Of a DNA stretch of 21,969 nt, positions 9,286-20,178 are shown piece after piece (position 1 is the first letter of the stretch; every line of letters starts with the position of its first letter). The stretch spans positions 1 to 21,969 of IMG/VR virus record IMGVR_UViG_3300020119_000155; one strand, 5' to 3'. Below the pieces are notes generated by a model, which saw only the letters and a list, made by a program, of their open reading frames with translations, searched no databases and was not told the DNA's origin. The stretch comes from a virus. The translations under genes and the position numbers were made by a program.

Positions 9286-9918
9286 ATGATTATTTCAATA
9301 TTAAATCAAAAAGGTGGAACAGGCAAAACTACTCTAGCGGTTAATATGGCGCGTGAGTATACCAACCGTGACTTTAAAACGTTGCTGGTGGACTCTGATA
9401 GCCAAGGATCAGCGTTACGCTGGCATGAGGAGTCAGGAGGCGAGTTAATAGATTTAACATGCTTACCTGTCACTACCTTAGATAAAGACGTGGTGAAATT
9501 TAAAGATCGTTACGAGCGAATTATCATTGATGGTATTCCAAGAGTATCGCCATTGACGATATGCGCTATAAAGGCCGCTGATATAATTCTTATTCCCGTG
9601 CAACCATCCCCGTATGACATTTGGGCGACTGAAGATTTAGTGCGACTGGTTCAGGAACGAATTGAGATTACCGAGGGGAAGCTTAAAGCTGCTTTTGTAG
9701 TATGCCGAAATATTAAAGGCACATTATTAAGTAGAGAGATTACTACACAATTATTGACCTTTGGCCTTTCAGTATTTATACATGGCACCTTTCAACGCCA
9801 AGAATATGCCAAATCAGTACAAGAGGGTCGCACCGTCTTAGAATCAAACACGGAAGCTAAAAAAGAGATTATATCTATTGTCAACGAACTAGAGGATTTT
9901 CATCATGGCACTCATTAA
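9286..9918 (+). CDS. parA: ParA-family partition ATPase (type Ib)
   Basis: 210 residues, short and without an N-terminal HTH, as in type Ib ParA/ParF proteins. The deviant Walker A is KGGTGKTT at 9-16, with signature Lys9 and catalytic Lys14. Walker A' is [11 protein letters not shown] with Asp36 and Asp38. Walker B is RIIIDGIP with Asp82, where most relatives have DTPP. It would polymerise or form gradients on nucleoid DNA with ATP and pull RHH-bound copies of the element apart. It sits between an HTH gene (1-nt gap) and an RHH gene (14-nt overlap), a complete partition cassette. Confidence 0.93.
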
Positions 9919-10105
9919 ATCAGGTGTTGAATTTGACAAAAAAGCAAACCATGTCAATTTAGCAAAGAATATTGATATCATTAAACCATATTTGTTTAAT
10001 ATACCTTCAGGGCTTTATAAGAAGGTTAAACGTAAAATGGTTGAGGATGAACGAAATTTACGAGATATATTAATTGAGTCTTTGAATAAATATTTAGATG
10101 AATAG
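9905..10105 (+). CDS. Ribbon-helix-helix partition protein (ParB/ParG-like)
   Basis: 66 residues; the start overlaps the end of parA by 14 nt. After a basic, flexible N-terminus (~30 residues), the C-terminal half [34 protein letters not shown] has the hydrophobic pattern of a ribbon-helix-helix domain: a short strand, helix, turn with Asn-Leu, helix. Size and order after a type Ib parA match ParG/Omega-like centromere-binding repressors. Assignment is by fold pattern and context. Likely targets are the AT-rich repeats at 9030-9074 and 10102-10133. Confidence 0.78.
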
Positions 10106-10154: not shown

Positions 10155-10277
10155 TGGGATGGAGGTGCAGAATTTGCTGCATAGTTGTCTTAGGTGCCTG
10201 AGATGTTAAAACATCGCTGACGGTGACAACTGCGAATTCACCTACTTGGCTTTCCAGTGAAAGGCTGGAACATCCCA
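10155..10277 (+). ncRNA. Structured RNA A: three-way-junction RNA candidate downstream of parA
   Basis: The 5' and 3' ends pair perfectly: TGGGATG (10155-10161) with CATCCCA (10271-10277). Inside are two arms. Arm 2 stacks AGGT/ACCT (10163-10166 with 10240-10243), GAATTTGC/GCGAATTC (10170-10177 with 10232-10239, one G-U) and AGTTGTC/GACAACT (10183-10189 with 10225-10231). It is capped by GATGT-TAAA-ACATC (10202-10215). Arm 3 is TTCCAG-TGAAAGG-CTGGAA (10252-10270), directly abutting the closing stem. No T-run follows, so the RNA probably reads into the next gene, as a leader would. I recognise no known family; it is not tRNA, tmRNA or RNase P RNA. Confidence 0.7.
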
Positions 10278-10297: not shown

Positions 10298-10552
10298 ATG
10301 GCACTGCAAAATAGAGGTAACAAAATGAGCAATGATGAACGTATCGCAATATTAGAGACGACCAGCTCACATATTTTAGATACATTATCTAGGTTAGAAA
10401 ATAGATTTATTGCATTAGAGAATAAAATAGATTTTAAATTTGATACTTTAGATAGGAAAATAGACTCAAATTTTAAATGGCTACTTACCATTATGATAGG
10501 CGGCTTTGTAGGAACATGGGGTGTTTTATCGCATGTGTTGCATTGGGTTTAA
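10298..10552 (+). CDS. Coiled-coil protein with C-terminal membrane anchor (XhlA/holin-like)
   Basis: 84 residues from ATG 10298 (AAGGA, 6-nt spacing); an alternative ATG at 10325 has its own AGAGG. Residues ~13-60 are a strong coiled coil with repeating Leu/Ile and Asp/Lys (ILETTSSHILDTLSRLENRF, then ALENKIDFKFDTLDRKIDSN). Residues ~61-83 form one membrane helix (LLTIMIGGFVGTWGVLSHVL). This architecture is shared with XhlA-type hemolysin/holin accessory proteins and many small phage membrane proteins. It is a candidate holin partner for the distant lysozyme, or an unknown membrane effector. It lies directly between structured RNAs A and B. Confidence 0.72.
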   Translation: MALQNRGNKMSNDERIAILETTSSHILDTLSRLENRFIALENKIDFKFDTLDRKIDSNFKWLLTIMIGGFVGTWGVLSHVLHWV

Positions 10553-10555
10553 AAG

Positions 10556-10572
10556 TTTATGGCCGACGATAC
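10556..10572 (+). repeat. 17-nt repeat TTTATGGCCGACGATAC, copy 1
   Basis: Identical to 10848-10864, 292 nt away. Each copy forms the 5' side of the closing stem and the GACG loop strand of an outer domain of RNA B. The 3' partner AATAGGCCA is also conserved at 10630-10638 and 10911-10919. Confidence 0.9.
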
Positions 10573-10847
10573 TAAGTATGGGATTTCCCAATAAGCATTT
10601 GTCCGTCCTAGCGGCGTGCTATTTAGTATAATAGGCCACCAGTTTATGGCAATCGCGGCGTGGACAGTGAGGAATTATGTTCCAAGACACGCACTGATGC
10701 GGATGAAATAATGTTAATAGGCTTAGCGGCTGAAATCATTATCCGACTGAGTGGTACAGCGTCACTAGAGACGGGTTGATCGCCGTAACTAACCATTACA
10801 ACGTGACGGTCAAATATAGCCGGTGCAATTCCGGCCGATTGCCACTT

Positions 10848-10864
10848 TTTATGGCCGACGATAC
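10848..10864 (+). repeat. 17-nt repeat TTTATGGCCGACGATAC, copy 2
   Basis: Second identical copy, opening domain 3 of RNA B. A shorter related sequence, AGTTTATGGC, shared with the flank of copy 1, opens domain 2 at 10641-10650. Confidence 0.9.
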
Positions 10865-10944
10865 CGACTTAAATTGCAATACAAGAAATTGGGATTGCTA
10901 ACCCCGGGAAAATAGGCCATCTATTTATATTAAAAGGATTTAAT

Positions 10945-11226
10945 ATGGAATTTAGTTACTATGGAAGAATAGAAGGAATCAAGGAAAAAAAAGGAGTTGA
11001 GTATTTTATGTTTGAAGAAGCTATGGAGAAAAAATTGACTGAATGTTTATCAGAATTGACTCATGAAGCAAAAAAGATTTATAAACAATATGAGGATCAG
11101 ATTGGAAAATTAATTAAAGAAACTACTTCTTTGAATCAAAGATTTGGATTTTTATTAAAGGTTTTTGAAAAAGATGAATTAAAAGACAAAATAGAAAAAG
11201 CTAAATATGAAGGGATTAAAAAATGA
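10945..11226 (+). CDS. Small charged coiled-coil protein, unknown
   Basis: 93 residues, ATG with AAAGGA 7 nt upstream in a leader very similar to that of the gene at 10298. It is Lys/Glu-rich and helical throughout (FEEAMEKKLTECLSELTHEAKKIYKQYEDQIGKLIKETTSLNQRF), with no membrane segment. It overlaps the next gene by 4 nt (ATGA), so the two are coupled. No family recognised. The segment right after RNA B makes it a possible RNA-associated protein, but nothing in the sequence proves that. Confidence 0.7.
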   Translation: MEFSYYGRIEGIKEKKGVEYFMFEEAMEKKLTECLSELTHEAKKIYKQYEDQIGKLIKETTSLNQRFGFLLKVFEKDELKDKIEKAKYEGIKK

Positions 11227-19718: not shown

Positions 19719-19883
19719 ATGGAAATTGATTTATATTCAAAGGCGGTTCATTTGCTGGAAAAAATAGCGAATTCGGTACATGAGCGCGACCCTAAGAATC
19801 CAAACTTGATGTGTTTTAGTTCAAATGAGGTACAGGTTGTAGAACAATGGTTAAAAGAATTTATACAAGAACAACAAAAATGA
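19719..19883 (+). CDS. 54-residue hypothetical protein, last gene before the terminator
   Basis: ATG 19719 with AAGGA at 19709-19713. 54 residues, acidic, helical (DLYSKAVHLLEKIANSVHER, then SNEVQVVEQWLKEFIQEQQK). The stop is immediately followed by a strong terminator, supporting it as a real gene. No family recognised. Confidence 0.62.
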   Translation: MEIDLYSKAVHLLEKIANSVHERDPKNPNLMCFSSNEVQVVEQWLKEFIQEQQK

Positions 19884-19885
19884 AG

Positions 19886-19922
19886 AAGCCCGCAAATTGA
19901 CAAAAAATGCGGGCTTTTTTTT
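19886..19922 (+). terminator. Rho-independent terminator
   Basis: AAGCCCGCA (19886-19894) and TGCGGGCTT (19908-19916) form a perfect 9-bp GC-rich stem, followed by a T-run to 19922. It ends the cro-led plus-strand operon 3 nt after the last stop. Confidence 0.95.
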
Positions 19923-20083: not shown

Positions 20084-20117
20084 CCTTTAGACATCAATGT
20101 TTATAGGGCTTTTACAT
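20084..20117 (+). terminator. Possible terminator before the iterons
   Basis: CCCT...AGGG arms with inner AGACAT/ATGTTT pairing (about 20085-20108) are followed by CTTTTAC. The stem is imperfect and the T-run short. Confidence 0.4.
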
Positions 20118-20178
20118 TAATACAAATAACCATTAACAAAAATAACCATTAATACAAATAGTCATTAATACAGGAACG
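20115..20178. repeat. Iteron array, 16-bp tandem repeats (candidate replication origin)
   Basis: CATTAATACAAATAAC (20115-20130), CATTAACAAAAATAAC (20131-20146) and CATTAATACAAATAGT (20147-20162) are tandem 16-bp units with no spacers. A fourth, CATTAATACAGGAACG (20163-20178), keeps the first ten bases. A head-to-tail AT-rich repeat array 135 nt upstream of an initiator-like gene is typical of iteron origins in plasmids and lambdoid phages. Confidence 0.75.

Follow-up and report, generated by a model that had tools for sequence, protein, structure and literature searches.

Organization of the locus

The window, that is, the whole stretch of 21,969 nucleotides analyzed here (IMG/VR virus record IMGVR_UViG_3300020119_000155), encodes a ParA-like protein and then a 66-aa ORF at positions 9286–10105. 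Farther along, the gap at 10556–10921 consists of three separable tandem modules, A1, B, and A2, and a fourth tRNA-like module, M1, is located one gene upstream of it (Table 1). All three domains of the gap start with TTTATGGC and finish with GCCA, as can be read directly in the sequence. Both outer domains share an exact 17-mer, TTTATGGCCGACGATAC, and the ending AATAGGCCA, while the middle one is closed by a perfect 9-bp helix, TGGCAATCG/CGATTGCCA, with a span of 198 nt. An earlier note on this DNA had described these common starts and ends, the 17-nt sequence, and the helix, placed around about 200 nt, and all of them are present; M1 is outside the coordinates that it gave. Two details were revised by comparison with related modules. 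The internal loop of the outer domains, described in the note as 4 × 4, is a 7 × 7 loop across the family (GACGAUA/GAAAAUA), and the GNRA-capped hairpin of the third domain does exist as CAA-GAAA-TTG, but such a cap is not a family feature.

Table 1. Modules and adjoining genes in and around the gap
Feature	Position	Strand	Description
Module M1	10155–10277	+	U-1 (10155); 6-bp acceptor GGGATG/CATCCC, 7 bp with U-1:A73
M1, T-arm-like hairpin	10252–10270	+	TTCCAG-TGAAAGG-CTGGAA, stacked on acceptor; A73, then CC
Gene for a small protein (M1–A1 interval)	10298–10552	+	Weak XhlA-like match; relatives at 5 loci, window included
Module A1 (type A)	10560–10641	+	U-1; P1 GGCC/GGCC plus U:A; internal loop GACGATA/TATAATA; P2 CTAA/TTAG; variable hairpins; A73; CCA
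Linker A1–B	10642–10646	+	GTTTA; in other phages, similar linkers lie between modules and true tRNAs
Module B (type B, tRNA-like)	10647–10844	+	U-1; 8-bp acceptor GGCAATCG/CGATTGCC (10648–10655/10836–10843) plus U-1:A73; linker CG
B, D-arm-like hairpin	10658–10692	+	GCGTG/CACGC; loop GACAGTGA; 17-nt insertion; variable domain next
B, T-arm	10819–10835	+	GCCGG-TGCAATT-CCGGC; A73 at module end
Module A2 (type A)	10852–10919	+	U-1; P1 GGCC/GGCC; internal loop GACGATA/GAAAATA; P2 CCG/CGG; variable hairpin; A73; TC in place of CC
93-aa ORF	10945–11226	+	Start 25 nt past A2, same strand

Folding energy and covariance models

The earlier note had chosen folding energy better than that of shuffled sequence as a measure of its reading; by this measure, under which the reading would have been refuted, the whole 406-nt stretch was no better (z −0.89; 19 of 100 shuffles equally good). 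Folded singly, A1 (z −3.47) and A2 (z −2.57) surpassed shuffles, and B (z −1.2) was unremarkable. Since energy is insufficient to decide and related sequences are able to do so, the comparative evidence is decisive. Covariance models for type B (R1) and type A (R2) were built without the window sequences, and both gave full-length module matches in the window. R1 matched module B at 10643–10848 (78 bits, E 1.5e-22) with the 17-nt insertion in the D hairpin, and R2 matched A2 at 10847–10923 (48.9 bits, E 6.8e-12) and A1 at 10555–10642 (44.6 bits, E 1.1e-10), all these E-values being rough. Elsewhere in the window, no further match to R1 or R2 was found at E up to 1.

Type A, type B, and M1

Among viral contigs, 33 stretches contain the 17-mer, and in nearly all of them it runs on through a variable hairpin to ...GGGAAAATAGGCC. 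A relaxed type A pattern retrieved 57 stretches, and the total collection comprises 68 distinct modules from uncultured phage contigs. Type A is a hairpin consisting of U-1, P1, a near-invariant 7 × 7 internal loop, and P2. P1 occurs as GGCC/GGCC and also as GGGC/GCCC, GCCC/GGGC, GTCC/GGAC, or GGCU/AGCC, and P2 begins with C-G and U.G, the latter being its commonest second pair, and is variable thereafter. The search pattern partly fixed P1, the internal loop, and U-1, while P2 and the trailing CC were free of it. Pairing in P2 was far above permutation, and double compensatory changes occurred in 9 of the 11 pairs of the alignment. The covariation score of 0.414 can be compared with 0.180 for shuffled controls, which ignore relatedness, and 0.09–0.14 for slid controls, which preserve it. 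CC follows N73 in 51 of the 68 modules (P about 6e-47) and N73 is a purine in 63, while the presence of U-1 is partly forced by the pattern. No T-arm is present, that is, the acceptor-stacked 5-bp T-arm of tRNA is missing, and the resemblance of type A to tRNA is confined to its ends and its company.

About 76 distinct type B modules were collected from other uncultured phage contigs with a pattern describing the D-arm-like hairpin alone, which retrieved 92 stretches; a variant hairpin added 10 more. The D hairpin of type B was thereby in part imposed by the search. The other conserved parts lie outside this pattern and include a 9-bp acceptor (8 bp plus U-1:N73) of freely varying sequence, a 5-bp T-stem stacked directly on it, and a 7-nt T-loop. 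The loop reads TGCAATT in 64 of 79 cases, with mostly G and not U at position 55, and an A precedes the T-stem in 76 of 77; these features were likewise pattern-free. A variable domain of 29–254 nt is found at the position of the anticodon arm. Double compensatory changes were detected in 18 of 19 pairs, and 96% of the alignment cells were paired versus 72% in shuffles and 33%–41% when slid; the covariation score was 0.62, with shuffles reaching 0.155 and slid controls no more than 0.11. When examined for tRNA architecture, type B showed an acceptor (8–9 bp) stacked on a T-arm (5 bp, 7-nt loop) and a 2-nt linker from the acceptor to the D-arm-like hairpin, and its predicted plan is that of a tRNA that has an 8 + 5 bp acceptor/T stack but lacks the anticodon arm. 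This family shows no enrichment of encoded CC (7 of 77), and modules B and A2 of the window do not have it.

A specific pairing between the D-loop and T-loop was considered and rejected as inconsistent: L148 and L087 have TTC loops yet carry the usual D hairpin. Matches to the D-hairpin pattern in three contigs derived from isolates (L077, L136, and L159) were likewise rejected, since they looked like coding sequence and the rest of the module was missing. Mechanically predicted ORFs of at least 100 aa overlap 21 of 77 type B modules and are taken as mostly spurious. A 67-nt, tRNA-sized type B module with the TGCAATT T-loop (L052:6128–6194) is possibly a minimal form of the family.

For M1, a 7-bp acceptor with a T-arm-like hairpin stacked against it arose in only 5 of 5,000 shuffles of its gap. 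Its homologues in L003 and L055 preserve the structure, with four double-changed pairs in the three sequences. By eye, M1 resembles a third tRNA-like group found in L041, L049, L093, L102, L114, and L127. This group has T-loops TGAAANY (TGCAATT in L127) and a D-arm of the GCTC...GAAGAGC type, and its inner segments are conserved in L041, L049, and L127.

Position of the modules in tRNA arrays

Type A modules, type B modules, and true tRNAs are found in the same arrays, on one strand, and are separated by similar AU-rich linkers of 5–9 nt (gttta, ccagttta, aagttta, agattaa). Examples are tRNA-Gln-aatttta-A (L022), B-tRNA-Gln-gttta-B (L092), and tRNA-Asn-aagttta-B (L147). Such alternation with tRNAs was observed in other phages, while the window itself contains no tRNA gene. 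The zone extending 500 nt from the modules makes up 11% of the sequence and contains 19 of the 32 tRNA genes. Matches to an acceptor plus T-arm numbered 108 in 237 kb near modules, many of these being type B modules themselves, versus 12 in 925 kb farther away. R1 detected type B in more than 20 loci retrieved for type A alone, which means that the two families travel together; type B is also present in many phages without type A. The families, their predicted secondary structures, covariation, strand, and place among tRNAs are all established at the level of sequence comparison.

Of the few true tRNAs in the vicinity of modules, most belong to Gln(TTG), Asn(GTT), Tyr(GTA), or Met(CAT), and this narrow set may hint at the tRNAs attacked in the host. 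Arrays of the same kind in L009, L031, L056, L082, L113, and L121 contain a module of about 110 nt, TTTATGGCTYTCGA...GARAGCC-NCCA. Another module, TTTATGGGG(A/T)GAGAAGGG...CAAAGTAAGCGTACGATGAAATG...TCCC, is strongly conserved across the different phages L008, L012, and L015.

These data change the overall reading of the gap. The earlier note was right in seeing a selected RNA structure, which is borne out by strong covariation among homologues, and in recognizing no known family, in agreement with the Rfam 15 search described below. Its single RNA of about 370 nt with three domains is not supported, since in other phages each domain occurs alone, in other orders and combinations, or beside true tRNAs. 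The proposed tie to the partition locus appears incidental because the neighboring genes differ widely between phages, and nothing was found in support of a role in copy number or packaging. Of the roles suggested in the note, a decoy for a host factor may still apply.

One could suppose that the modules have no function as RNA and represent insertion or recombination repeats acting at the DNA level, or decaying tRNA remnants. Recombination can indeed yield tRNA-like sequences and repeated ends, and several modules adjoin true tRNAs. However, compensatory double changes are found throughout A, B, and M1, the second position of P2 in type A is most often a U.G pair, and the modules follow the direction of the genes on either side, the members of all 27 neighboring module pairs being co-stranded. 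Taken together, these three features indicate selection on RNA, and an explanation at the DNA level is extremely improbable.

The strongest rival is tRNA punctuation, according to which the modules are cut sites that split a polycistronic message into mRNAs and the excised RNA has no further role. It is consistent with the location of modules between co-directional genes and with the fact that many of them finish a few tens of nucleotides ahead of the next start codon; in the window, M1 and A2 each end about 20–25 nt before an ATG. Punctuation would nevertheless require neither the invariant 7 × 7 loop of type A, nor the invariant D hairpin of type B, nor a gene-free A-B-A tandem. Moreover, relatives differ in their module sets at a comparable position, where L003 has a single A and the window has A-B-A. 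We consider this explanation unlikely, although it deserves to be kept in mind.

The frequent location of modules just 5′ of a same-strand gene would also suit a cis-acting leader or UTR element controlling this gene, such as a riboswitch-like element or one acting on translation. Inspection of the neighbors for a dedicated partner protein or conserved downstream gene revealed none, the protein families being diverse. The tandem copies and the alternation with true tRNAs also disagree with a leader, and a terminator or ribosome-site switch was not seen as a common feature. A cis-acting role is therefore improbable.

Database searches and comparison with known RNAs

Searches of the window against Rfam 15, run with the gathering cutoff and also with E up to 10, produced only chance-like matches, and neither family A nor family B is in this database. 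ARAGORN and Rfam found no tRNA (RF00005) with an anticodon and no tmRNA in the window. BLASTN of the array and a typical type B module against cultured phages and plasmids returned nothing useful, and a search for homologous loci by way of the 93-aa protein downstream of A2 yielded none. In bacterial genomes, the type A pattern gave three chance-like matches and type B was absent; in 398 genomes of one phylum, searched with strict filters and no positive control, type B was not found either. No description of A or B was found in open-licence papers.

The closest precedents are RNAC and RNAD of phage T4 (species 1 and 2), of 139 and 119 nt, which are encoded in the T4 tRNA array. Like the modules, they are RNAs other than tRNA that are encoded next to tRNAs in the array of a phage, and the T4 RNAs are stable. 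They are expressed late (PMC9697503), and their roles are unknown (PMC3014915). Neither matched R1 or R2 at E up to 10, so RNAC and RNAD are outside families A and B, and RNAC differs in its body and in its T-loop, which is canonical. A perfect T-arm-like hairpin, CCGGG-TTCGAAT-CCCGG, forms the end of RNAC (L160:1409–1547), which folds at z −4.6 relative to shuffles and has no Rfam model.

The modules resemble phage tRNAs and viral tRNA arrays in their arrangement, strand, and linkers, and type B shares the acceptor and T-arm architecture. On the contrary, type B has no anticodon arm, an 8 + 5 bp stack instead of 7 + 5, and the T-loop TGCAATT, and it is negative in ARAGORN and Rfam. In tmRNA, a tRNA-like end with acceptor and T-arm is combined with a large domain that replaces the anticodon arm, and type B is alike in this respect. 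Besides being ARAGORN- and Rfam-negative, type B differs from tmRNA in that no tag reading frame was noted, and since the acceptor sequence varies freely, it has no fixed acceptor identity element. The bacterial Y RNA-like RNAs, YrlA, are tRNA mimics as well; the YrlA model (RF02553) had no match in loci carrying type A, type B, or third-group modules, and its weak match of 25.8 bits (cutoff 69) fell over T4 tRNAs only.

ROOL and GOLLD, large RNAs of phages that are often located near tRNA islands (PMC12286853), invite the idea of an RNA-only assembly or small self-cleaving ribozyme, in which type A would be catalytic or self-assembling. The very strong conservation of GACGAUA/GAAAAUA, a loop between two helices, fits this idea. 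However, the modules are far smaller than ROOL and GOLLD, have no sequence or structure in common with them, and did not match these models or those of ribozymes, OLE, and other families of Rfam 15. In addition, the linkers shared by A, B, and true tRNAs are more in keeping with common host enzymes than with A-specific cleavage. This reading is quite improbable. The phi80 M3 RNA, C4 antisense RNA, and plant-virus tRNA-like structures, all non-tRNA RNAs cut by RNase P (PMC11143913), may serve as a model for the putative excision of A and B, although judging by Rfam they are not homologous to these families.

Proposed maturation and role of the modules

The best explanation, and in our opinion a rather probable one, is that the modules give rise to stable RNAs that the tRNA-maturation enzymes release from transcripts of the tRNA array and that act as tRNA mimics. 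The gap would then be a part of a phage tRNA-type array encoding separate small RNAs. We infer that the modules are co-transcribed with the neighboring genes and excised in the manner of tRNAs by the tRNA-maturation enzymes. RNase P would make the 5′ cut between U-1 and G1, and the 3′ side would be formed by cleavage in the AU-rich linker plus trimming. U-1 and the 3′ RCCA are recognition features of bacterial RNase P, whose substrates also include hairpins other than tRNA, tRNA-like structures of viruses, and RNAs of phages, M3 RNA among them (PMC11143913; PMC12710915). Type B retains the acceptor stem, T-arm, and D-arm-like hairpin, i.e., the parts read by maturation and tRNA-binding proteins, M1 retains the acceptor and T-arm, and type A the helix end alone, usually with CC or CCA. 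Decoding is impossible because the modules have no anticodon.

Defenses attacking tRNAs are common. The Cas12a3 defense recognizes the T-arm, acceptor stem, and CCA tail of tRNA (PMC12851939), and phages reportedly counter tRNA-targeting defenses with tRNAs (PMC11555353, PMC10264068). The likeliest use of the modules would be to engage a host factor that binds tRNA, either as a decoy for a defense nuclease or toxin attacking tRNA ends or as a sponge for a tRNA enzyme, a conjecture that we put forward tentatively. As targets of such decoys, one may conjecture factors reading the tRNA elbow or CCA end, for example, Cas12a3-type tail-cleaving nucleases (PMC12851939) or CCA-modifying toxins. It is also possible, with considerable doubt, that a group of uncultured phages employs its tRNA arrays as production lines for anticodon-less tRNA mimics, with A, B, M1, and the related group as independent families of counter-defense decoys or sponges matured by host enzymes.

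At least two RNA families supported by covariation, which have no counterpart in Rfam 15 or in the records of cultured phages that were searched, fill a niche like that of T4 RNAC and RNAD in many uncultured phages. With the alignments, models, and conserved loops now at hand, it can be asked why phages retain non-decoding RNAs among their tRNAs, which bears on the phage answers to tRNA-destroying defenses. Phage annotation pipelines overlook this class of conserved RNA genes.

Other noncoding features of the window

At 20115–20168, in a noncoding gap of about 430 nt just 5′ of the gene for a DnaD-like replication protein, a 22-nt repeat (CATTAATACAAATAACCATTAA) occurs three times with an exact 16-nt spacing. 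These repeats are a candidate iteron-like origin, and together with the ParA-like protein they suggest a phage-plasmid lifestyle. A strong terminator-like inverted repeat (GCCCGCA...TGCGGGCTTTTTTTT) at 19883–19919 closes the rightward operon.
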